Positions 7,277-62,464 of a stretch of 64,000 nt of DNA are shown here, piece by piece. This stretch comes from Comamonadaceae bacterium (lineage in GTDB: Bacteria > Pseudomonadota > Gammaproteobacteria > Burkholderiales > Burkholderiaceae_C). Each line of letters starts with the position of its first letter. Within the stretch, counting starts at the first letter, position 1. The translations under genes were made by a program, and so were the position numbers. The notes below the pieces were generated by a model that searched no databases, was not told the DNA's origin, and worked only from the letters and a program-made list of their open reading frames with translations. The stretch lies in NCBI GenBank assembly GCA_007280205.1, contig QYPX01000081.1, positions 1 to 64,000 of the forward strand, in the 5' to 3' direction.

Positions 7277-8050
7277 ATGTCTACCAGCCCGGTCGCCAAC
7301 TGCCTGCAGGCCGACGACGTGTCGGTCACCTTTGCCGGGCTGCGCGCGCTCAAGCACGTCAGCCTGCGCCTGGAGCGCGGGCAGATCGTGGGGCTGATCG
7401 GACCCAATGGTGCCGGCAAGACAACCCTGGTCAACGTGCTCACTGGATTCAACGCATTGAACACGGGGCGTGTCCTGCTTGATACAACCGTGCTGCATGG
7501 ACTCACTGCCGACGCCTTTCGGCGCCAGGGTGTGGCACGGACCTTTCAGGGTGGTCGACTGTTTCGCAACCTGAGCGTTCAGGACAACCTGGAGGTCACG
7601 GCAGTCGGCCTAGGCATGTCACGGCGCGCCGCCACGGCAGAGGCGCAGCGCGTTCTGCAGTGGATGGATCTGACGCATCTGGCGGATCGGTTGGCCGGGG
7701 TTCTGCCCTATACGGACGAGCGGCGCGTCGGCATTGCGCGCGCCATCATCGGGCGTCCGGCCTTCCTGCTGCTCGACGAACCGGCCGCCGGCATGAGCGA
7801 GCACGAGGCGGCTGATTTGCGCGCCATCATTGCCCGCATTGCGCAGGAGATTGGCTGCGGCGTTCTGTTGATCGAACACAACGTACGCCTCGTGCTGAGC
7901 ATTTGCAGCTACATCGTGGTGCTCGACACCGGCGAGGTAATCGAGCAGGGGGACCCGGACCGCATTCGCCAAAGCGAGCGCGTGCGTCACGCCTACATGG
8001 GAACGGCAGCCGAAACGGTCGCCGATCCACTGGCGGCGGAGGACGCATGA
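7277..8050 (+). CDS. livG: Branched-chain amino acid-type ABC transporter ATP-binding protein
   Basis: Walker A GPNGAGKTT; LivG-like sequence; next gene overlaps by ATGA. Confidence 0.88.
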   Translation: MSTSPVANCLQADDVSVTFAGLRALKHVSLRLERGQIVGLIGPNGAGKTTLVNVLTGFNALNTGRVLLDTTVLHGLTADAFRRQGVARTFQGGRLFRNLSVQDNLEVTAVGLGMSRRAATAEAQRVLQWMDLTHLADRLAGVLPYTDERRVGIARAIIGRPAFLLLDEPAAGMSEHEAADLRAIIARIAQEIGCGVLLIEHNVRLVLSICSYIVVLDTGEVIEQGDPDRIRQSERVRHAYMGTAAETVADPLAAEDA

Positions 8051-8787
8051 ATCTGCTCGAAATCCATGACCTGAACGTGCGCTATGGCGGCATCACCGCA
8101 CTGCACAAGCTCAGTCTCACGATCAAGGCCGGCGAGACGGTAATGGTCACCGGTCCGAACGGGGCCGGCAAGTCAACGCTGCTCAAGACCATTGCCGGGC
8201 TGGTAAAACCGCAACATGGCAGCGTGGTTTTTGATGGACAACTCATCACCGGTTGCGCGCCGGAAACCATTGCCGCTGCCGGTTTTTCAATGGTGCCCGA
8301 AGGGCGCCAGGTGTTCAACTCGCTAACCGTGCTGGAAAACCTGCGTGTTGGCACCGGTATGCGGCGCAACAAGCTCGCCGTCGCAGCCGATCTCGATTAC
8401 GTGATGGACGTCTTTCCCGTGTTGGGTGAACGCGCCCTGTCGCAGGCCGGCATGCTCTCGGGCGGCCAGCAGCAGATGCTGGTCATTGGCCGCGGCCTGA
8501 TGACAGCGCCCAGGCTGTTGGTCATCGACGAGCCCTCGCTGGGTCTGGCCCCGCTGGTCACCGATCAGGTCTATGAAGCGCTAATGCGCCTGCGTGTCGA
8601 GCGCGATCTGACGCTGCTGATCGTCGAGCAAAGCGCCAGCCGCGCCGTCATGACGGGCGGGCGCATGGTGATGTTGCGCGAGGGCCGCATCGTGCTCGAA
8701 GGCGATCCGCGCGAACTCACTGCGCACCAGATGCAACAGGCCTATTTTGGCTACGAAGATGAACCCGCTACTGAGAGCACGCCATGA
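8047..8787 (+). CDS. livF: Branched-chain amino acid-type ABC transporter ATP-binding protein
   Basis: ORF frame 7903..8787, ATG at 8047; GPNGAGKST, LSGGQQQM signature. Confidence 0.9.
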   Translation: MNLLEIHDLNVRYGGITALHKLSLTIKAGETVMVTGPNGAGKSTLLKTIAGLVKPQHGSVVFDGQLITGCAPETIAAAGFSMVPEGRQVFNSLTVLENLRVGTGMRRNKLAVAADLDYVMDVFPVLGERALSQAGMLSGGQQQMLVIGRGLMTAPRLLVIDEPSLGLAPLVTDQVYEALMRLRVERDLTLLIVEQSASRAVMTGGRMVMLREGRIVLEGDPRELTAHQMQQAYFGYEDEPATESTP

Positions 8788-9698
8788 CCGCCACGCTGCA
8801 ATACCTGTTTGATGCGCTGAGCCTTGGCAGTCTGTACGCCCTGGGCGCGCTGGGCATCGCGCTGATCTTCGGCGTCATGCGGTTGGTCAACTTCGCGCAT
8901 GGCGACGTCATGACCTTCGCCATCTTCATCCTGATCGCGCCCACCACCGAAGCCGTGGCGCCGCTGTGGGTCGGCGCTTGGTCGACACCACTGCTGGTGC
9001 TCACCGTGCTGGTCGCCGGCGCCGCGCTGTCAATCGTCTCTGAGTGGCTGGTATTTCGGCACCTGCGTCATGCCACACCAGCCACCACCATGATGGCGTC
9101 CTTCGCACTTGGCTTTGTGTTGCAAAACACATTGCTGGTACTGCACAGCAGCAGGCCCAAGGCCGTCAATCTGTGGCCGACGCTGAGCATGCCGATGAAC
9201 CTGTGGGGTGCACGCGTGCCGGGGCTGCAGATGCTGATGATCAGCATCACCATGTTGCTGCTGATCGGCCTGGCCTGGATGCTCAAGCGCAGTCGGGTCG
9301 GACTCGAAATGCGGGTCGCTGCCGAGAATTTCGACATGGCGCGCATGCTCGGCGTCAAGGCCAACCGCGTGATCCTAGTGGCGTTCGGTCTGAGCGGGAC
9401 GCTGGCCGCCTTGATCGGCCTACTGATGGTGAGTCAGACCGGCTTAGTCGACATTCGCATGGGCGGGCCGATGATGCTGGTGGCCTTCGTCGCCACTGTG
9501 ATTGGCGGCCTGGGCAGCCTCGGCGGTGCGGTGCTGGGCGGCTTTCTGATTGGCGCCGTCAGCACGGCGCTGCAGGCCTGGCTGCCGCTTGATGCGCGGG
9601 CCTTTCGCGATGCTTTCGTCTATCTGGCGGTGATTTTGCTGTTGCTGTGGCGCCCCGACGGCCTGTTCGTGACCAGTGCAGTCCGGCAACGCGTCTGA
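8784..9698 (+). CDS. livH: Branched-chain amino acid-type ABC transporter permease
   Basis: LivH motif GALGIALIFGVMRLVNFAHGD; ATGA overlap with livF. Confidence 0.9.
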   Translation: MTATLQYLFDALSLGSLYALGALGIALIFGVMRLVNFAHGDVMTFAIFILIAPTTEAVAPLWVGAWSTPLLVLTVLVAGAALSIVSEWLVFRHLRHATPATTMMASFALGFVLQNTLLVLHSSRPKAVNLWPTLSMPMNLWGARVPGLQMLMISITMLLLIGLAWMLKRSRVGLEMRVAAENFDMARMLGVKANRVILVAFGLSGTLAALIGLLMVSQTGLVDIRMGGPMMLVAFVATVIGGLGSLGGAVLGGFLIGAVSTALQAWLPLDARAFRDAFVYLAVILLLLWRPDGLFVTSAVRQRV

Positions 9699-48364: not shown

Positions 48365-51300
48365 GTGCACTTGCCTGTTCCTTATCGCGTTGAGGCCGAC
48401 ATCGTTTCGGCTCAGCTGTTGCGCCTGGCGGGCGCGCTGGATTGGGCCGCGGTGGCCCGTGCTGCCACACCCTGGGTGCAGGCAGTGCGCAGCAACCCGC
48501 CGCCGTTCTGGGCGCTCGAGAGCCTGCTGCAGGAGTACCCGATTTCCAGCGCCGAAGGGCTGGCCCTGATGCGTCTGGCCGAAGCGCTGCTGCGCGTGCC
48601 CGACGCCGAGACCGCGATTGCGTTGACCGCCGATCAGCTGGGGCGTGCCGACTTTGACGGCGCTGGTGACAAGACGCTGGCACGACTGTCGAGTACCGCC
48701 ATTGCCATGAGCAAGAAATTTCTGCCCGACAGCGAAGCGCCGAGCGGCATGTTTGCCAAGCTCGGTGCACGTTCGGTGGTGGCTGCCACCCTGCGGGCCG
48801 TGCAGTTGCTGGGCCGCCAGTTTGTGCTCGGGCAGACCATCAACGAGGCGATGGCTGAAGCCGCATCGGCCAGGCGCAAGATGAAGAACTTGCGCTACAG
48901 CTATGACATGCTGGGCGAAGGCGCGCGCACCGATGTCGATGCGCTGGCGTATTTGGCCAGCTACCAGCACGCCATTAAGGCGATCGCCGCCAACAGTGAT
49001 AAGGCCGGTGCCTGCGAACCCAACGACGGCATTTCGATCAAGCTTAGCGCCTTGCATCCGCGCTTTGAGGAGGCGCAGAAAGAGCGTGTGCTGGCCGAAC
49101 TGGTGCCACGTGTCTGGAGTCTGTGCGAGCAGGCGGCACGCGCCAACATCAACCTGACGATGGACTCCGAAGAGGTGGACCGGCTGGAACTTTCGCTGGA
49201 TGTATTCGAGGCGCTCGTCAGTCAGGTGGCGCAGCATTTCCCGCAGTGGGGCGGCTTTGGCCTGGCGCTGCAGACCTACCAGACACGTTCGCTGGAACTG
49301 GTCGAGCACGTGATCGCAGTGGCGCGGCGCTACCAGGTGCGCCTGATGTGTCGGCTGGTCAAGGGCGCTTACTGGGACGCCGAGATCAAACGTGCGCAGG
49401 AACTGGGCCTGCCCGCCTATCCGGTGTTCACCCACAAGCAGCATACCGATGTGTCTTACCTGGCCTGCGCCCGCACCCTGCTTGATGCGCCGGATGCGGT
49501 CTACCCGCAATTTGCCACGCACAACGCCGGCACCATTGCTGCCATCCTGCAGATGGCGAGCATGGCCCCCACGCTTGCCGCTTCGCCTGCTGCGCTGCCC
49601 CCCGAGGGGGCCTTCGCGCCTTGGGGCGGCCCGGCGGCGCTCAAACGTGGCCCCCAATTCGAGTTGCAGCGCCTGCATGGCATGGCTGAAGGCGTTTACC
49701 GCGAGGTGCTGAAGAACCCCTTGGTCGCCTGCCGCATTTATGCTCCGGTCGGTGCGCACAAGGACCTGCTGGCCTACCTGGTGCGCCGCCTGCTGGAAAA
49801 CGGCGCCAATTCGTCCTTTGTGCACCAGCTGGCAGATGAGAGAGTCGCTCTGCCCGACCTGCTGATCTCGCCGCTGCGCCTGGAGCCACAGGCGTCGCTG
49901 CCGCTGCCGCCTGAACTGTTCGGTGCTGCGCGCAAGAACAGCGCTGGCCTGGATTTGACGGTCGAGGCCATGCGGGAACCACTGTTCAGCGCGTACCGGG
50001 AAGTGACGGTTCCGCTGGTGCCGCTGTTCGATCTCCGCCTGCTCGGTGCTGCGATGGAAAAAAGCGGTGCGAGTTTCAGGAAGTGGAGCAAGACCGATCC
50101 TGCCCTGCGCTGTGCGGCTCTGCGTCGTGCAGCGGACGCGCTGGAACAACAACTGCCGAAATTTTGCGCGTTGCTGGTGAAGGAAGCTTTCAAGACCTGG
50201 GGCGATGCGGTCAGCGAAGTGCGCGAAGCTGTGGATTTCCTGCGTTACTACGCCGTTGAGGCTGATCGCATCATGGCGCCGATCGCCATGCCCGGTCCCA
50301 CCGGAGAATCCAACGAACTGCGCCTCATCGCGCGCGGACCCTGGGTTTGCATCAGCCCGTGGAACTTTCCACTGGCCATTTTCATGGGCCAGGTGGCAGC
50401 AGCATTGGCCACCGGCAACACGGTGCTGGCCAAACCGGCCGAGCAGACGCCGGGTGTGGCGCTGGAAGCGGTCAAGCTGCTGCACGCCGCGGGTGTACCT
50501 GAGGCTGCGCTGCAACTGTTGCACGGCCCCGGCGAAACCGTGGGCGCTGCGCTGGTGGCGGCGCCGGGTGTGGCGGGCGTCGTGTTTACCGGTTCCACTT
50601 CGGTTGCCAAAATCATTCATCGGGCGCTGGCCGCCAAGGACGGACCCATCGTTCCCCTGATTGCGGAGACCGGTGGCATCAACGCCATGCTGGTGGACAG
50701 CACGGCGCTGCCCGAGCAGGTCAGCGACGCCGTCATGCAGTCGGCCTTTCGCAGCGCCGGCCAGCGCTGCTCGGCGCTGCGCCTGCTGTGCGTGCACGCC
50801 GAGATTGCCGACCATGTGATCGAAATGATTCAGGGGGCGGCGAAGGAACTGGTGATCGGTGACCCGGCTGATCTGGCGACGGACTTGGGGCCGGTCATAG
50901 ACAAGGAGGCTTTTGACAATATTCAGAAGCACCTTCAAAGATTGCGCGCCACAGCCAGGTGTTGTCATGCCGTCCCCGGATCAGGTCCGGGGTTACAACA
51001 TCCGGCATCCATGCAATTGAGCAAACCCTGGATCCCGGCTCAAGGCCGGGATGACAAATATCGGGACCGGGATGACCAATATCGGGACCGGGATGACCAA
51101 TATCGGGGCCGGGATGGCATGTATTTCGTCTCGCCGCAAGCTTTCGAACTCAACTCCATCGCCGAGTTGCAGCAGGAAATCTTCGGGCCGGTGCTGCACA
51201 TCGTGCGCTGGAGTGGCGACCCGCTGGCCTTGATCGACCAGATCAACGCCTTGGGCTTCGGTCTGACACTGGGCATCCAGACCCGCATCGACAGCCGGGC

Positions 51301-51517
51301 ACAAGCGATGGCGCGACGCGCCCACATCGGCAATGTTTACATCAACCGCAACCAGATTGGCGCGGTCGTTGGCGTTCAGCCCTTTGGTGGCGAGGGCCTC
51401 TCGGGCACCGGCCCGAAAGCCGGTGGCCCGCATTACCTGTACCGCTTTTGCGCGGAGCAGACCATCACCGTCAACACCACCGCAGCAGGTGGCAATGCCG
51501 CCCTGCTGGCGGGCTGA
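48365..51517 (+). CDS. putA: Bifunctional proline dehydrogenase / L-glutamate gamma-semialdehyde dehydrogenase PutA with two apparent in-frame insertions
   Basis: 1050 aa; PRODH (RLVKGAYWDAEIKRAQ) and P5CDH (SPWNFPLAIFMGQVAAALATGN, GQRCSALR, QPFGGEGLSGTGPKAGGPHYLYRF) domains; no N-terminal RHH domain. Confidence 0.95.
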   Translation: MHLPVPYRVEADIVSAQLLRLAGALDWAAVARAATPWVQAVRSNPPPFWALESLLQEYPISSAEGLALMRLAEALLRVPDAETAIALTADQLGRADFDGAGDKTLARLSSTAIAMSKKFLPDSEAPSGMFAKLGARSVVAATLRAVQLLGRQFVLGQTINEAMAEAASARRKMKNLRYSYDMLGEGARTDVDALAYLASYQHAIKAIAANSDKAGACEPNDGISIKLSALHPRFEEAQKERVLAELVPRVWSLCEQAARANINLTMDSEEVDRLELSLDVFEALVSQVAQHFPQWGGFGLALQTYQTRSLELVEHVIAVARRYQVRLMCRLVKGAYWDAEIKRAQELGLPAYPVFTHKQHTDVSYLACARTLLDAPDAVYPQFATHNAGTIAAILQMASMAPTLAASPAALPPEGAFAPWGGPAALKRGPQFELQRLHGMAEGVYREVLKNPLVACRIYAPVGAHKDLLAYLVRRLLENGANSSFVHQLADERVALPDLLISPLRLEPQASLPLPPELFGAARKNSAGLDLTVEAMREPLFSAYREVTVPLVPLFDLRLLGAAMEKSGASFRKWSKTDPALRCAALRRAADALEQQLPKFCALLVKEAFKTWGDAVSEVREAVDFLRYYAVEADRIMAPIAMPGPTGESNELRLIARGPWVCISPWNFPLAIFMGQVAAALATGNTVLAKPAEQTPGVALEAVKLLHAAGVPEAALQLLHGPGETVGAALVAAPGVAGVVFTGSTSVAKIIHRALAAKDGPIVPLIAETGGINAMLVDSTALPEQVSDAVMQSAFRSAGQRCSALRLLCVHAEIADHVIEMIQGAAKELVIGDPADLATDLGPVIDKEAFDNIQKHLQRLRATARCCHAVPGSGPGLQHPASMQLSKPWIPAQGRDDKYRDRDDQYRDRDDQYRGRDGMYFVSPQAFELNSIAELQQEIFGPVLHIVRWSGDPLALIDQINALGFGLTLGIQTRIDSRAQAMARRAHIGNVYINRNQIGAVVGVQPFGGEGLSGTGPKAGGPHYLYRFCAEQTITVNTTAAGGNAALLAG
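49556..49658. repeat. Intragenic CTGCCCCCCGAGGGGGCC..CCTTGGGGCGGCCCGGCGGCGC repeat-like insertion in putA
   Basis: Encodes SMAPTLAASPAALPPEGAFAPWGGPAALKRGPQ, not expected in PutA between AAILQMA and FELQRLHGM; GCCCCC-CGAG-GGGGCC palindrome. Confidence 0.65.
50963..51120. repeat. Intragenic bipartite palindromic element plus 21-bp tandem tail in putA
   Basis: GTCATGCCGTCCCCGGATCAGGTCCGGGG ... TGGATCCCGGCTCAAGGCCGGGATGAC, then 21-bp units at 51047-51067, 51068-51088, 51089-51109 and a partial unit. Confidence 0.93.
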
Positions 51518-51572: not shown

Positions 51573-51947
51573 TCAGGCAGCGTAGGCCGGGGTGGCTCTC
51601 ATGAGCGCCGGAACTTCAATCTTCGCCACGGTGGCGGTCAGGGCTTCAACCGCGGTCCAGAGCAGCATGGCGATCCCGACGAAGGGGAAAGTCACCGCAT
51701 AGACCAGACCGATGAAGGGAGCAGCAACCAGCAGGGCCACATTCTTCACGAGGCGTCCTGCATAAGCCAGCGCCCCAGCGGCGACGAGCGCCTTGGTACC
51801 AGTTACCAGCAGCATGGCCATACCGACGAAGGGCAGCAAGACGGCGTAGACCAGACCGATGAAAGGAGCTGCCAGGAAGAGCGCGACGTTCTTTGCTGTG
51901 TTTTCGTTGGCAACTGCTTCTGTGCGGGTGATGTTGGCGTTTGTCAT
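51573..51947 (-). CDS. Small membrane protein with internally duplicated hydrophobic hairpin
   Basis: 124 aa; KNVALFLAAPFIGLVYAVLLPFVGMAMLLVTGTKAL repeated 49 residues on as KNVALLVAAPFIGLVYAVTFPFVGIAMLLWTAVEAL; own terminator. Confidence 0.8.
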   Translation of the reverse strand: MTNANITRTEAVANENTAKNVALFLAAPFIGLVYAVLLPFVGMAMLLVTGTKALVAAGALAYAGRLVKNVALLVAAPFIGLVYAVTFPFVGIAMLLWTAVEALTATVAKIEVPALMRATPAYAA

Positions 51948-53507: not shown

Positions 53508-54332
53508 TCAGGGCTTGAAGTACTCCTGCACCGTCTCCCAGGCGCTGCTCTGGAGGTGCTTGGCTGTCGCCTCATCGAGCCCGGCCGTGTAGCTCAAGCC
53601 GACCGGGGATTTTTTGAACAGCGACGCATAGACGGTGCAGGCAGCCAGATAAGTTCCGGCGACGCTGGGATGGCGCTTGTCTGGTACATAAAGATTGAGA
53701 TCGGGACGCTTGGCGATGGAACGCGCAAAAGCCAGCCCGGCCGGAATCACAAAAGCGTCGTTGTCGTTCGCCGCCTGGGTGTAGGCATCGGCCAGTTGCG
53801 CTGTCATTTCCGGCACATCGGAATAGGCCCAGGACATGAAGAACACCGGCTTGGTGCCATGCTTGCGCACCGTGTCGCTGTTCTTTTTTGCGTAATCGCG
53901 AAACACCGACTTGAGCTGCGGGTGAATCGGGCACTGGCTGCAGTCCATCATGATGGCGACGTCAAACAGGCGATCTACCTTGTTGAAGACGATATTGTTC
54001 CGGGAGTCGAATGAGTAGGCACTCACGGCGTTGGGCCGAAAGTAGGAATCGACGTCATGCCAGTCAAAGCCCGAGCCACTGATGGTGACCGAGACGCTGC
54101 GCAGGCGCTCCTTGCTGTCTGCCGCTCTGCGCAACTGACCGACATGATTGTGCAGACTGTTGTTGTAGTAAAAAAAGCTGTTGCCAACGTAGAGGATGGA
54201 CGCCGGGTTTTCCATGCCGAGCTCCAGTACCTTGGGCCTGGTTTGCGCAAGCAAGTCGCCCGACCACAGGAAGGCCAGCAGCAGTGAAAACAGCAGACTG
54301 GCGAGTCGGCCATTGCGGTGGTGTTTCAGCAT
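53508..54332 (-). CDS. Exported SGNH/GDSL-type hydrolase (DUF4886-like)
   Basis: Signal peptide; ILYVGNSFFYYNNSL block I and PDKRHPSVAGTYLAA block V. Confidence 0.75.
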   Translation of the reverse strand: MLKHHRNGRLASLLFSLLLAFLWSGDLLAQTRPKVLELGMENPASILYVGNSFFYYNNSLHNHVGQLRRAADSKERLRSVSVTISGSGFDWHDVDSYFRPNAVSAYSFDSRNNIVFNKVDRLFDVAIMMDCSQCPIHPQLKSVFRDYAKKNSDTVRKHGTKPVFFMSWAYSDVPEMTAQLADAYTQAANDNDAFVIPAGLAFARSIAKRPDLNLYVPDKRHPSVAGTYLAACTVYASLFKKSPVGLSYTAGLDEATAKHLQSSAWETVQEYFKP

Positions 54333-54376: not shown

Positions 54377-55963
54377 TCATTGTCCAAGATACTTGAAAAA
54401 TGCGCTGTTGAGTTTGGCTTCGGCGTCGATCAGGCTGACGTTGCGAGCGGCCAGCCAGGCCTTGTCTCGGTTAACAGAGTCGCGCGCCAGGCCGAGCATG
54501 CGTTTGACTTCAGCCGGTTGCGGGCCGCCAATACCGACCCGGCTGCGCACCATGTCGTCGGGTGACAGCGTCGCGCGGAACACCTGCTCGCTCAAAGGAA
54601 ATTTGCCGTCGGTCAAACCGTCCTGCTTGATCGCTTCGGCGTACAGCTCAACTGCCCTGGCATAGGGAAACTGGCTCGGGCGCAGGTCCTTCTTGCGGGC
54701 ATCGGTCACGACCAGACTGGCAAAGTGATGGCCAATGCGAAACGGTACCTGGTGCAGACGTTGCAGTGTCTCGGCCAACTCCATGGAGGTGGTCCAGTCG
54801 CTGTTGAGTTCATCCAGCGAACGCTTCGGGTCCACCCGCAGCGCCTTGAGCACAGTGACGAACTGACTGAGCATCTCTACGGCCGAAACATAGGTGCCGG
54901 GTACCAGTTCCTTGTAGTCGGTCATGCCCGGCGTCACATTGTGCGCGTGCAAGGTCGCCCATTGCGCCAGCGCCACCACATCCGTCGCCTTGGTGCGGGC
55001 GCCCATGATGAGCCCAGGATTCTGCTTTTGCGGCATTGCGCTGCTGGTGTAGGTCTGGCTGGTGTCAAGCAGGATCCATGGCTTGCTTTGGTGGTACTGC
55101 GTATGCAGGTCCTGCATCATCGCGCCGACCCGGATCGCGGTGGAACTGACGATGCTGGCAGCTTCAATCGGCACATCGTAGGAGATGACCTGGCCGGAGT
55201 CGTAGGAGTTGAGCACCAGGCCGTCAAAGCCGAGCAGCTCAGCGAGCCGGTTGCGGTTCAGCGGCCAGCTTGAATTGGCCAGCACGGCCGTGCCCATCGG
55301 GCTCAGGTTCAGCCGCGCGTACAGCTCCTTGAGGCGCTGGCTGTCACGCGCAAACGAATCGGCAAAGGCCAGCAGGTAATGTGCGTAGCTCACTGGCTGC
55401 GCTTGTACGCCATTGGTATAGGCCGGCACAAAAGTTTCGGTGTTCTTGTCGGCAAAATCGATCAAGGCCGAGCGCGCAAGCAACAGTGCGTCCGCCGTGT
55501 CAAGCACTGCTGTGCGCAACTGGGCTACCCGGAAGGTAGCCAGCATGTCTTGCCGGCTGCGTCCGGAATGGATCAGCGTGGCCTCGGGACCGGCTTTTTC
55601 GGAAATGATTTTCTCGATCTGCAGCACGTCCTTGGGGCGCTTGCCCTTGGGCTCATCCGCCTGACGGATCGAATAGATCACGCCTTCGGCAATCGGCCTG
55701 GCCAGCTTGGCAGGAATGATGCCCTCTTCAAGCAGCATCGCGGTCGAAGCCATGTTGATCCGGCCCAGCCAGTAAAACTGATCCTGCGCCTTGGCCCGTG
55801 CGCTGGTTGCATCCTTGGTCACGGTGCCGCGCAGACGGTCGGCTTCGGCCTGGCATTCTGCCGTGGTCTTGCACGCGGTATCCCGAATATCGGCTGCGTG
55901 GCTGAAGCCAGACGCCAGAGCCATTGCCAGCAGCGCCAGCGGTTTCAGGGCGAAAGCTTTCAT
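54377..55963 (-). CDS. Exported argininosuccinate lyase-like (fumarase/aspartase superfamily) protein
   Basis: Signal peptide MKAFALKPLALLAMALASGFSHA-AD; HSGRSRQDM, SSAMPQKQNPG superfamily motifs. Confidence 0.88.
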   Translation of the reverse strand: MKAFALKPLALLAMALASGFSHAADIRDTACKTTAECQAEADRLRGTVTKDATSARAKAQDQFYWLGRINMASTAMLLEEGIIPAKLARPIAEGVIYSIRQADEPKGKRPKDVLQIEKIISEKAGPEATLIHSGRSRQDMLATFRVAQLRTAVLDTADALLLARSALIDFADKNTETFVPAYTNGVQAQPVSYAHYLLAFADSFARDSQRLKELYARLNLSPMGTAVLANSSWPLNRNRLAELLGFDGLVLNSYDSGQVISYDVPIEAASIVSSTAIRVGAMMQDLHTQYHQSKPWILLDTSQTYTSSAMPQKQNPGLIMGARTKATDVVALAQWATLHAHNVTPGMTDYKELVPGTYVSAVEMLSQFVTVLKALRVDPKRSLDELNSDWTTSMELAETLQRLHQVPFRIGHHFASLVVTDARKKDLRPSQFPYARAVELYAEAIKQDGLTDGKFPLSEQVFRATLSPDDMVRSRVGIGGPQPAEVKRMLGLARDSVNRDKAWLAARNVSLIDAEAKLNSAFFKYLGQ

Positions 55964-56005
55964 ATCGATCTACTCCTTGAAAAGAATTGTTATGACGTGG
56001 CAAGC

Positions 56006-58261
56006 TTACAGCTTGAGCTCCAGCCGCAACTGCAGACTGCGCCAGGACGGTGACGTGTTGGTGACGCTCTCGCGCAGCGCCTGAGCGGAGGCGTTGCTCG
56101 AATCCAGCGTGTTGCTCGTTACATAATCGCGCGCTGCCAGATTGCCCAGCGAGAAGCGCAACTGGCTGGTCGGATTCAGCACCCAGAGCACGAAGGCGTC
56201 GAGTACCAGTTTGGCGCTTTGCACCACGCGCTGGTCGTCACTCAGGCGCGTGGTGTAGCCCGGCGTCCAGTTGAGGTTGCCACCAAAGCTCAGTGGCATG
56301 TCGCGCAGCCGGTAATCGGCGCCCAGGTTGGCCGTGCCATTGGGCTGCTGCGAGAGTCGGTTGTCGGGCGCCGGCACGCCTTGCACGCGCGAAGTGAACA
56401 GGCTGATGTTGCTGCGCACGTCAACGCGTGGTGCCTCTGGCCACAGGTCGCTGGCGCGGAACTTGGCTTCCAGTTCCAGACCCTGGGTAATGGCATCACC
56501 GATGTTTTGCAGTCGTGCCACCCAGCGCGGCGAATCGGCCCAGGAGACCGTCTCCAGCGTTGTCTGGCTGCGCATCAGGTTGCTGATGTGGCGGTAGAAC
56601 AGGTTGGCGCTGAGCATGCCGCTGCCGGGCAGGAAGCGCTCCATTGCAATGTCCAGACCGCTGGCCAGTTCCGGCTTGAGCTCCGGATTGCCGCCACGAT
56701 CCGGGTGCAATTCGTCATTGGGGCCGCGTCCGGGGAACATGCCGGAGATGCGTGGCCGCGCAATCAGGTCCTGCAAACCGGGTGAGCGGTAGCTGCGCGT
56801 CAGGCTGGCGCGCAACTGGTCCCGGTAGGGCGAATCGAACTTCCAGACCGCATGCAAGAGCGGTGTCCAGACACTGCTCTGGTTGCGTGCTTCGGGCATA
56901 CCCGTGGCAGTGCTGCCCTGGGTGCTGATGCCTTCCCAGCGCAAGCCGGCGTGCGCAGCCAGCTGGCGTGTCACCGACCATTCGTCCTGCGCGTAGAGGG
57001 CTGCACGCAGACTCGACGCCGTGAGATTGCCATCGAACTCCGTCAGGGGCGACTCACCATCCTGCAAGGTCGTCGCAACTTCGCGGCGGCGGTTGCTTTG
57101 CAACTCGGCGCCGGTTACCAGGTTGTGGTCGTTGGCCAGCGTCTTGGTCAGTTTGGCACTGGCGCTGAAGTTGAGGTCATGCTGCTCGGAGCGGTTGTCC
57201 GATTGGCCGACGGTAGGACTGGAGCCAAAGTACTGACGCAGCGAAGCATTGTCCCAATCGCTTTGTCCCAGCGTGGCGCGCAGTTGCCAGTTGCCGCCGT
57301 CCGGTAGCCGGTGCATCCATTGGGCACCCAGGCGCAGGCTGCTGAAGCGGTTGGCGCCGGAGCCGCTGGCGCTGTCAAAGGGTGCCGTACCACCGATTTG
57401 CGTCAGGCTGCTGCTGCTCAGGCTGGAACTCTGTGATTGCACCAGCATGGGCGTCAGCACCAGGGTGTCGCCCTGTTCACCGCGCCACTGCAGGCGGCCA
57501 TTGGCCTGGATGGCGTCGCGCTGGCTGGATGACTGTGTGCGTTCAAGCCGGTCAATCAGCTCGCCGCTGTCCAGGTTTTCTATGGTGGTGTGGCTGCTGC
57601 TGTCGTTGCTGCGCTCGCCGTGCTGGGCCGACAGCGAGACGTTGTAGATCCAGTTGCCTGCCACTTCGTTGTGGATCCAGGAGACGCCGGGCTGCTGGTT
57701 GCCGTTCTCCAGGCCCAGCCCCAGGCGCAGATCATTGAGCCGCTTGCTGTAGCCGCCGCGCGTCACGATGTTGATGGTGCCGCCGATGGCGCGGGCACCG
57801 GTTTCGGCCGTGGGTGCGCGCAGGATTTCGATGCGCTCAATCTGCTCGGGCGAGAGTTCGTCGAGCGAGAAGCCACGCGGCGCCGGCTCGCCGTCAATCA
57901 GGATCTGGGTGTAGCCGCCGCCCAGCCCACGCATGCGGGGTGCGCCGCCGCGCCCAGGCCTGCCGGGCATGGTGACGCCCGGCAGGCGTTTGAGCAACTC
58001 CCCCACGGTGCTGTCGCCAAAGCGTTCGATTTCGTCACGCCCGACAATGATCTTGCTGGCGGTGGACTGACGTCGCGCTTCGGTGTCGTCGATTGCTGCG
58101 CCGACGATGGTGACTGGTTTGAGTTCGCCGGTACTGCGTTGGGGCGACGCGGGGCGGCCTGATTCCATCAGAGCAGGGGCAGAGTCCGGCGTCTGGGCCT
58201 GCGCCGACAGGGTTGCGGCGAGTATCAACGGGCCGAGCCAGCGCTTGACTGCACTCATCAT
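56006..58261 (-). CDS. TonB-dependent outer-membrane receptor
   Basis: 751 aa; plug domain GDSTVGELLKRLPGVTMPGRPGRGGAPRMRGLGGGYTQILIDGEP; beta-barrel C-terminus ending LRLELKL. Confidence 0.92.
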   Translation of the reverse strand: MMSAVKRWLGPLILAATLSAQAQTPDSAPALMESGRPASPQRSTGELKPVTIVGAAIDDTEARRQSTASKIIVGRDEIERFGDSTVGELLKRLPGVTMPGRPGRGGAPRMRGLGGGYTQILIDGEPAPRGFSLDELSPEQIERIEILRAPTAETGARAIGGTINIVTRGGYSKRLNDLRLGLGLENGNQQPGVSWIHNEVAGNWIYNVSLSAQHGERSNDSSSHTTIENLDSGELIDRLERTQSSSQRDAIQANGRLQWRGEQGDTLVLTPMLVQSQSSSLSSSSLTQIGGTAPFDSASGSGANRFSSLRLGAQWMHRLPDGGNWQLRATLGQSDWDNASLRQYFGSSPTVGQSDNRSEQHDLNFSASAKLTKTLANDHNLVTGAELQSNRRREVATTLQDGESPLTEFDGNLTASSLRAALYAQDEWSVTRQLAAHAGLRWEGISTQGSTATGMPEARNQSSVWTPLLHAVWKFDSPYRDQLRASLTRSYRSPGLQDLIARPRISGMFPGRGPNDELHPDRGGNPELKPELASGLDIAMERFLPGSGMLSANLFYRHISNLMRSQTTLETVSWADSPRWVARLQNIGDAITQGLELEAKFRASDLWPEAPRVDVRSNISLFTSRVQGVPAPDNRLSQQPNGTANLGADYRLRDMPLSFGGNLNWTPGYTTRLSDDQRVVQSAKLVLDAFVLWVLNPTSQLRFSLGNLAARDYVTSNTLDSSNASAQALRESVTNTSPSWRSLQLRLELKL

Positions 58262-58512: not shown

Positions 58513-59496
58513 ATGAAACGTTTATTGGTTCTGGCCGCCGCCGTAACGGCGTTGTTTGCGAATGCACAGAGTTTTCCGGGCAGCAAGCCGATCACCTTCG
58601 TGGTTCCGTTTGCTGCCGGGGGTCCCACCGACCGGGTCGCACGTGACTTGGCGGAAGCCATGCGCAAGACCCTGCCCGGCGGCAATTTTGTGGTGGAAAA
58701 TGTCAATGGTGCAGGGGGCACGATCGGGTCAACCAAAGTCGCCAAAGCCAGCCCCGATGGGCATACCCTGCTGTTGTGGCATATCGGCATGGCTGCCACA
58801 GCGGGCTTGTACCGCAAGCTGCAATACAAGCCGCTGGAAGACTTTGAATACCTTGGTATGGTCAACGATGTGCCCATGACCCTGATTGGCAAGCCTCAAT
58901 TGCCAGCCAACACTTACCGTGATTTTGAGAACTACATCAAGGCCAATAGCGGCAAGCTCAACATTGCGCACGCCGGTCTGGGTTCGGCCTCCCACCTGTG
59001 CGGCCTGATGTGGCAGTCGGCAGTCAACGCCAAAGAGGCGATGACGACCATTCCTTACGGTGGAACAGCGCCCGCCATGACGGCCTTGATGGGTGGCCAG
59101 GTGGACGTGATGTGCGATCAGACCACCAACACGGTGACGCAGATTGAGGCGGGGCGGGTCAAGGCCTTTGCCGTGACGACCCCAACGCGCCTGTCATCGC
59201 ACAAAGTCCTCAAGGACTACCCGACACTCGACGAGATGGGGATGCGGGGCTTCAATCTGACGATCTGGCATGGACTGTACGCGCCCAAGGGTACACCGGC
59301 GCCGATACTCAAACAGCTCAATGACGCCATGAAGCTGGCGCTCAAAGACCCGGACTTCATCAAGAAACAAGAAGGTCTTGGTGCGGTTGTGGTGACCGAC
59401 GCTCGCATGGAGCCAGCGGGTCACAAAGCCTTTGTCGCCGCTGAAATCGCGAAACTCAAACCCGCCATTGAAGCTGCAGGAAAGTTTGCCGACTAA
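58513..59496 (+). CDS. Bug/TctC-family periplasmic substrate-binding protein
   Basis: FPGSKPITFVVPFAAGGPTDRVARDLAEAM; signal peptide. Confidence 0.93.
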   Translation: MKRLLVLAAAVTALFANAQSFPGSKPITFVVPFAAGGPTDRVARDLAEAMRKTLPGGNFVVENVNGAGGTIGSTKVAKASPDGHTLLLWHIGMAATAGLYRKLQYKPLEDFEYLGMVNDVPMTLIGKPQLPANTYRDFENYIKANSGKLNIAHAGLGSASHLCGLMWQSAVNAKEAMTTIPYGGTAPAMTALMGGQVDVMCDQTTNTVTQIEAGRVKAFAVTTPTRLSSHKVLKDYPTLDEMGMRGFNLTIWHGLYAPKGTPAPILKQLNDAMKLALKDPDFIKKQEGLGAVVVTDARMEPAGHKAFVAAEIAKLKPAIEAAGKFAD

Positions 59497-62437: not shown

Positions 62438-62464
62438 GTCATCCCGGCGCAGGCCGGGATCCAT
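62438..62464. repeat. Single half-element GTCATCCCGGCGCAGGCCGGGATCCAT
   Basis: Same GTCATCCCGG/CCGGGATCC arms as other elements in window. Confidence 0.8.

Follow-up and report, generated by a model that had tools for sequence, protein, structure and literature searches.

What does a bacterium do with a protein that has the fold of argininosuccinate lyase (ASL), a signal peptide and an altered active site? The question is raised by a gene on the minus strand (54377..55963) of the 64,000-nucleotide stretch of Comamonadaceae DNA analysed here, which we call the window. We somewhat favor the view that its product is an active extracytoplasmic lyase, which frees fumarate for uptake from a succino-adduct that is neither argininosuccinate nor EDDS.

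The lyase gene and its product

The coding sequence, which was assigned from the open reading frame, Pfam, structure searches and an AlphaFold2 model, specifies a protein of 528 aa. The reading frame, its strand and coordinates, the signal peptide and the motifs are all as a preliminary description of this DNA had given them. A Shine-Dalgarno sequence, AAGGAG (55973..55978, minus strand), lies 9 nt ahead of the ATG that opens a predicted Sec-type signal peptide (residues 1-23, MKAFALKPLALLAMALASGFSHA then AD; 55895..55963, minus strand). The signal peptide was recognized by our own hydropathy and start-site analysis and has equivalents across the exported clade described below, in agreement with the export signal claimed earlier. 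Tat export was considered and rejected: a twin arginine is found in the n-region of only 11 of the 111 exported family members and is absent from the window lyase, and Sec is therefore favored over Tat. The only two cysteines of the window lyase, Cys31-x5-Cys37 (55853..55873, minus strand), likely form a disulfide, judging from the sequence, and C-x5-C is present in 53 of the 111 exported non-redundant members.

The protein matched Lyase_1 in Pfam (E 9e-22). Its best curated family model was argH (TIGR00838), with 198 bits against a cut-off of 279.5 bits, and a PHROGs search with it gave no match. A second ASL homologue in the genome of the window (G000:C102), with the motif HTGRSRND, was taken as the true ArgH, which bears out the earlier claim that the exported protein is not an arginine-synthesis enzyme. 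TSSAMPQKQNP, HSGRSRQD and YTNGVQAQP are kept across 160 related loci and are therefore not chance, and dN/dS values of 0.13 and 0.06 against the lyases of loci L004 and L003, respectively, indicate that the gene is under purifying selection.

Relationship to EDDS lyase and composition of the active site

A sequence search of solved structures returned EDDS lyase of Chelativorans sp. BNC1 (6g3d-6g3i) as the nearest relative (6g3d, E 8e-45), well above Escherichia coli ArgH. The AlphaFold2 model, built from 43 family members, had a mean pLDDT of 88 and is a monomer, whereas the active site spans several subunits. Its best structural match was again EDDS lyase (Foldseek TM 0.80/0.85; Z 38 over 472 residues). 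Together with the Lyase_1 match and an invariant loop with its serine, these results place the window lyase in the ASL/aspartase/fumarase superfamily, and both the fold and the kinship to EDDS lyase proposed in the preliminary description stand.

Alignment with EDDS lyase located the motifs, all on the minus strand. HSGRSRQD (residues 132-139, 55547..55570) is the counterpart of HIGRSRND, with Asn113 replaced by Gln138. YTNGVQAQP (residues 182-190, 55394..55420) retains Thr183 and has Asn184 in place of the catalytic His. SSAMPQKQNP (residues 307-316, 55016..55045) retains Ser307, Ser308, Lys313 and Asn315 and is followed by Gly317 at the position of Asp290. HNVTPGMTDYK (residues 341-351, 54911..54943) is a family signature in which Met347 replaces Tyr320. 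Ser307 corresponds to Ser280 of EDDS lyase, which we take to be the catalytic base. The two enzymes share this serine, the Thr, Lys and Asn, and HxGRSR, and neither has the His of ASL. They are about 25-27% identical and differ in that the signal peptide, Gln138, Asn184, Gly317 and Met347 belong to the window lyase; we know of no export signal in EDDS lyase. ArgH and the delta crystallins share with it the fold and the GRSR(N/Q)D and SSxMPQKxNP loops, but ArgH is cytosolic, keeps Thr-His and an Asp behind NP, and has no HNxxxGMxDYK segment.

In EDDS numbering, Ser280, Ser281, Lys286, Asn288 and Thr158 are kept across the family, as is Arg112 (Arg137 in the window lyase) except in one subclade, which has Ser. 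The SSxMPQKxNP loop and its base serine are invariant among the 43 diverse members, and the flexible-loop serine is retained, as the preliminary description had said. The substitutions relative to EDDS lyase are Asn113 to Gln, Gln159 (His in ASL) to Asn, Asp290 to Gly and Tyr320 to Met; elsewhere in the family the Asp290 position is taken by Tyr, Val, Thr or Ala. R112, N113, Q159, N288, D290 and Y320 are given as substrate-adjacent residues of EDDS lyase (PMC12363623). Therefore, the loop and the fumarate side appear intact and the amine side remodelled, and we interpret the protein as a lyase that is probably active on a new substrate. With Gly and Met at two of the substrate-adjacent positions, the amine part may be of lower polarity or of another shape. 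A Met was also engineered at position 320 of EDDS lyase, in the variant D290M/Y320M (6rx8), of which the natural Met347 is reminiscent.

An exported clade within a sparse family

Databases label the family members as ordinary argininosuccinate lyase. We assembled 80 loci from a scan of named genomes and added further loci from genome searches, which gave 160 loci (131 non-redundant) of broadly proteobacterial distribution. The family is sparse in genome samples (5/398 at the level of the phylum, 30/400 of the family and 33/300 of the order, the window's own genome being counted in each).

In a tree with ArgH and EDDS lyase as outgroups, the basal clade has 13 members, which keep the His (YTHGVQAQP) and lack a signal peptide. 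This cytosolic sister clade (for example L118, L119 and L182-L191) belongs to the same family by the tree (SH-aLRT 100), shares Gln138 and Met347 and has GMFDYR, but differs from the window lyase in the absence of a signal peptide, the retained His, a larger number of cysteines and a TctC gene adjoining in 9 of 13 cases. The other clade (SH-aLRT 96) comprises 117 rows, every one with Asn at the His position and 110 of them exported. Counted as non-redundant members, this clade has 118, all without the catalytic His (L158, missed by the motif pattern, reads YTNGI), of which 111 look exported and 7 cytosolic according to our own hydropathy and start-codon script, which stood in place of SignalP, and by eye for L117 and L178-L180, which have long open frames. 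The 7 cytosolic members form one family-level group (f20: L117, L173, L175, L176, L178-L180) nested within the exported clade and therefore look re-internalised. The median peak hydropathy was 2.30 in exported and 0.88-0.95 in cytosolic members. The cysteines point the same way: the mature parts of nearly all exported members contain 0-2 of them (mean 1.24), whereas the two cytosolic groups average 5.3 and 3.6 and each ArgH has 3-7.

By tree placement, export appears to have had a single origin, on the branch that also saw His change to Asn. The two substitutions singled out in the preliminary description are both present, but neither is peculiar to this protein: every member of the exported clade has Asn instead of His, and the residue of EDDS lyase at this position is Gln; RSRQD, with Gln for Asn, is common to the whole family, the His-keeping cytosolic clade included.

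We found no description of an exported ASL-fold family in the open-access literature, to which the search was confined; within its known superfamily, the clade appears to be an exported subfamily that has so far gone undescribed. An indirect sign of a periplasmic location comes from Achromobacter xylosoxidans, where the periplasmic fraction contained three "argininosuccinate lyases" for which Tat signals were predicted and which the authors took as enzymes of arginine synthesis (PMC11533796). That fraction was not pure, since a succinate dehydrogenase subunit was listed in it too (PMC11533796). A related Achromobacter (L055) carries a single exported family member together with a single ArgH-like gene and is linked to those proteins through the genus.

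Carboxylate carriers and porins beside the lyase genes

We counted genes within 400 bp of the lyase on each side and compared them with the zone 3-9 kb away. For exported members, SDF carriers were counted on 8/216 adjacent sides and in 1/949 kb of the distant zone, kilobases standing in for genes; the corresponding counts were 13/216 and 19/949 for TctC, 6/216 and 0/949 for porins, and 4/216 and 1/949 for OprD. Lyases with an SDF carrier alongside belong to three separate lineages of the tree (Stutzerimonas; Herbaspirillum/Polaromonas/Pseudomonas gingeri; L144). In the cytosolic Asn group, DcuC was found on 7/14 sides (0/77 at distance) and beside the lyase in 7/7 members; in the His clade, TctC was found on 13/26 sides (8/133). 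TctC proteins are common in Burkholderiales. Since the sides are not phylogenetically independent and 92 of the 111 exported members have no listed carboxylate carrier adjoining, we take this enrichment as a hint rather than as proof. Although the three carrier types import different compounds, as families they are tied mainly to di- and tricarboxylates, which fits fumarate (or a carboxylate substrate) as the common theme.

The gene order in Stutzerimonas is OprD porin, lyase, a convergent DctA-type SDF symporter and LysR. In Herbaspirillum, Polaromonas and P. gingeri it is TpsB, TpsA, lyase, an HMW1C-like gene (not in all), SDF and LysR. Beside plasmid copies of the lyase we found no constant partner, and the surroundings varied.

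Several other arrangements were observed. Some genomes that have a cytosolic Asn member with adjoining DcuC also keep an exported copy. At L062-L078 and L155 (Herbaspirillum, Polaromonas and some Pseudomonas), the lyase lies in an adhesin-like locus, flanked by a two-partner-secretion exoprotein (TpsA, accompanied by TpsB) and, at many of these loci, by an HMW1C-like glycosyltransferase on the other side. At L158, inspection by eye showed a protein with a Tat-like leader (7765-8922) that resembles a TRAP (DctP) binding protein and is divergent from the exported lyase.

Proposed reaction and the case for another chemistry

In the mechanism that we propose, the lyase would pass through Sec into the periplasm, where its substrate would be a succino-adduct, with an N-substituted aspartate as the likeliest candidate. 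The flexible-loop residue Ser307 would take the C-beta proton, Thr183, Ser308, Lys313 and Asn315 would hold the succinyl carboxylates, and the C-N bond would be broken to give fumarate and an amine. Carriers for C4-dicarboxylates or of the tricarboxylate type (DctA/SDF, TctC systems) would then bring the fumarate into the cell, to be oxidized in the tricarboxylic acid (TCA) cycle. The outer membrane may be crossed through a porin in several lineages and, in the lineage of the window, perhaps through a TonB receptor. We infer the activity, the fumarate product, the cleavage of a C-N rather than another bond and the catabolic direction. The broader proposal, that widespread, undescribed extracytoplasmic lyases release fumarate, that export arose once together with His to Asn, and that C4-dicarboxylate carriers import the fumarate half, we regard as evenly poised.

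A protein of the same place and fold could carry out another chemistry, either cleavage of C-S or C-O succino-adducts (S-(2-succino) thiols, mercaptosuccinate) or an isomerase or decarboxylase reaction like those of CMLE and trans-aconitate decarboxylase. Superfamily members of this kind, cycloisomerases and the trans-aconitate decarboxylase Tad1, do match the model (Z 27-28), and the amine-side residues are unlike those of both known N-lyases. An Advenella "putative argininosuccinate lyase", MIM_c16970, which is tied to the family by annotation only, was induced 6.4-fold on mercaptosuccinate (PMC5373536), in keeping with such a chemistry. The window lyase is closer in sequence and fold to EDDS lyase and ASL than to CMLE or Tad1, however, and we consider this alternative unlikely.

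The TonB receptor operon and the metallophore reading

The window lyase is flanked on the same strand by a TonB-dependent receptor gene 42 bp upstream (56006..58261, minus strand) and, 44 bp downstream, by a gene for an exported DUF4886 protein, SGNH-hydrolase-like by motif (53508..54332, minus strand). A gene for a TctC-type solute-binding protein (58513..59496, plus strand) is divergent from the receptor gene, and its tie to the lyase is uncertain. DUF4886 relatives lie 52 bp after the distant exported lyase in L158 and upstream of the cytosolic lyase in L117, so this protein may be a real, occasional partner.

This arrangement invites the suggestion, made in the preliminary description, that the lyase opens an aminopolycarboxylate metallophore imported by the receptor. 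The pairing is kept in L003 (from another collection) and L004/L111, EDDS lyase is the nearest solved relative, and within the genus the receptor occurs in 8/9 lyase-bearing genomes and 7/51 others (p 2e-5), a co-occurrence that is confounded by relatedness, nearest relatives driving part of it. However, receptor orthologues (59-93%) occur in 15 of 60 congeneric genomes and adjoin the lyase in just two of these, the window genome and G039, and across the family the pair is seen in the window and at L003 and L004/L111 only. The receptor gene of G018 (L128) is directly followed by DUF4886 and SBP6 without a lyase, apparently the unoccupied state of the operon; the lyase is therefore probably a later arrival at this site, and the linkage looks recent. 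No Fur-, Zur- or NikR-like site stands out upstream of the receptor gene (the best Fur match, 12/19, is equalled by 7% of random window stretches). The family-wide neighbors are carboxylate carriers and porins, and the window lyase has Gly and Met in place of Asp290 and Tyr320. The metallophore reading is accordingly possible but not favored, and we hold it to be quite improbable. The congeneric genomes that have the receptor, most of them without a lyase beside it, also led us to reject it as an obligate partner. Solved relatives of the receptor gave matches to the plug domain only and were uninformative as to its substrate.

Elsewhere in the window, a 21-bp tandem repeat of 3.4 copies (51046-51116) lies in frame within a PutA-like open reading frame (48365..51517, plus strand) and contributes WIPAQGRDDKYRDRDDQYRDRDDQYRGRD to its product. 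The repeat is similar to dispersed "WIPAFAGMT" elements, of which one copy lies near 62438-62462. At 51573-51947 (minus strand), a 124-aa protein with an internally duplicated hydrophobic repeat (APFIGLVYAV..PFVGxAMLL) had no Pfam match.

Probable catalysis without the histidine

The loss of the His had also prompted the idea that the protein uses the ASL fold for binding and not for catalysis, as a binding protein or pseudoenzyme. His to Asn is the same change as in the inactive delta-2 crystallin mutant H162N (1dcn, among the structural matches of the model), and solute-binding-protein genes are nearby. The loss does not imply inactivity, because EDDS lyase works with Gln at this position. 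A binding protein would have no need of the base serine and SSxMPQKxNP loop that are invariant in the 43 members, and the fumarate-side residues are likewise invariant; we therefore judge this idea very unlikely. A periplasmic scavenger of argininosuccinate itself would share the ASL fold but can be practically dismissed, given the score under the argH cut-off, the change of the His, Asn113 and Asp290 equivalents and the separate ArgH in the genome.

Implications

Under the label "argininosuccinate lyase", exported members are taken as arginine-synthesis enzymes even when they are found in the periplasm, and the mislabelling of the family thus causes arginine pathways and proteomes to be misread. 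If the extracytoplasmic, fumarate-releasing lyase that we favor is active, the family would extend beyond the cytoplasm a superfamily whose other members are regarded as cytosolic, and would offer a natural test of ASL-fold catalysis without the His; its exported members might be useful as biocatalysts for C-N bond formation.
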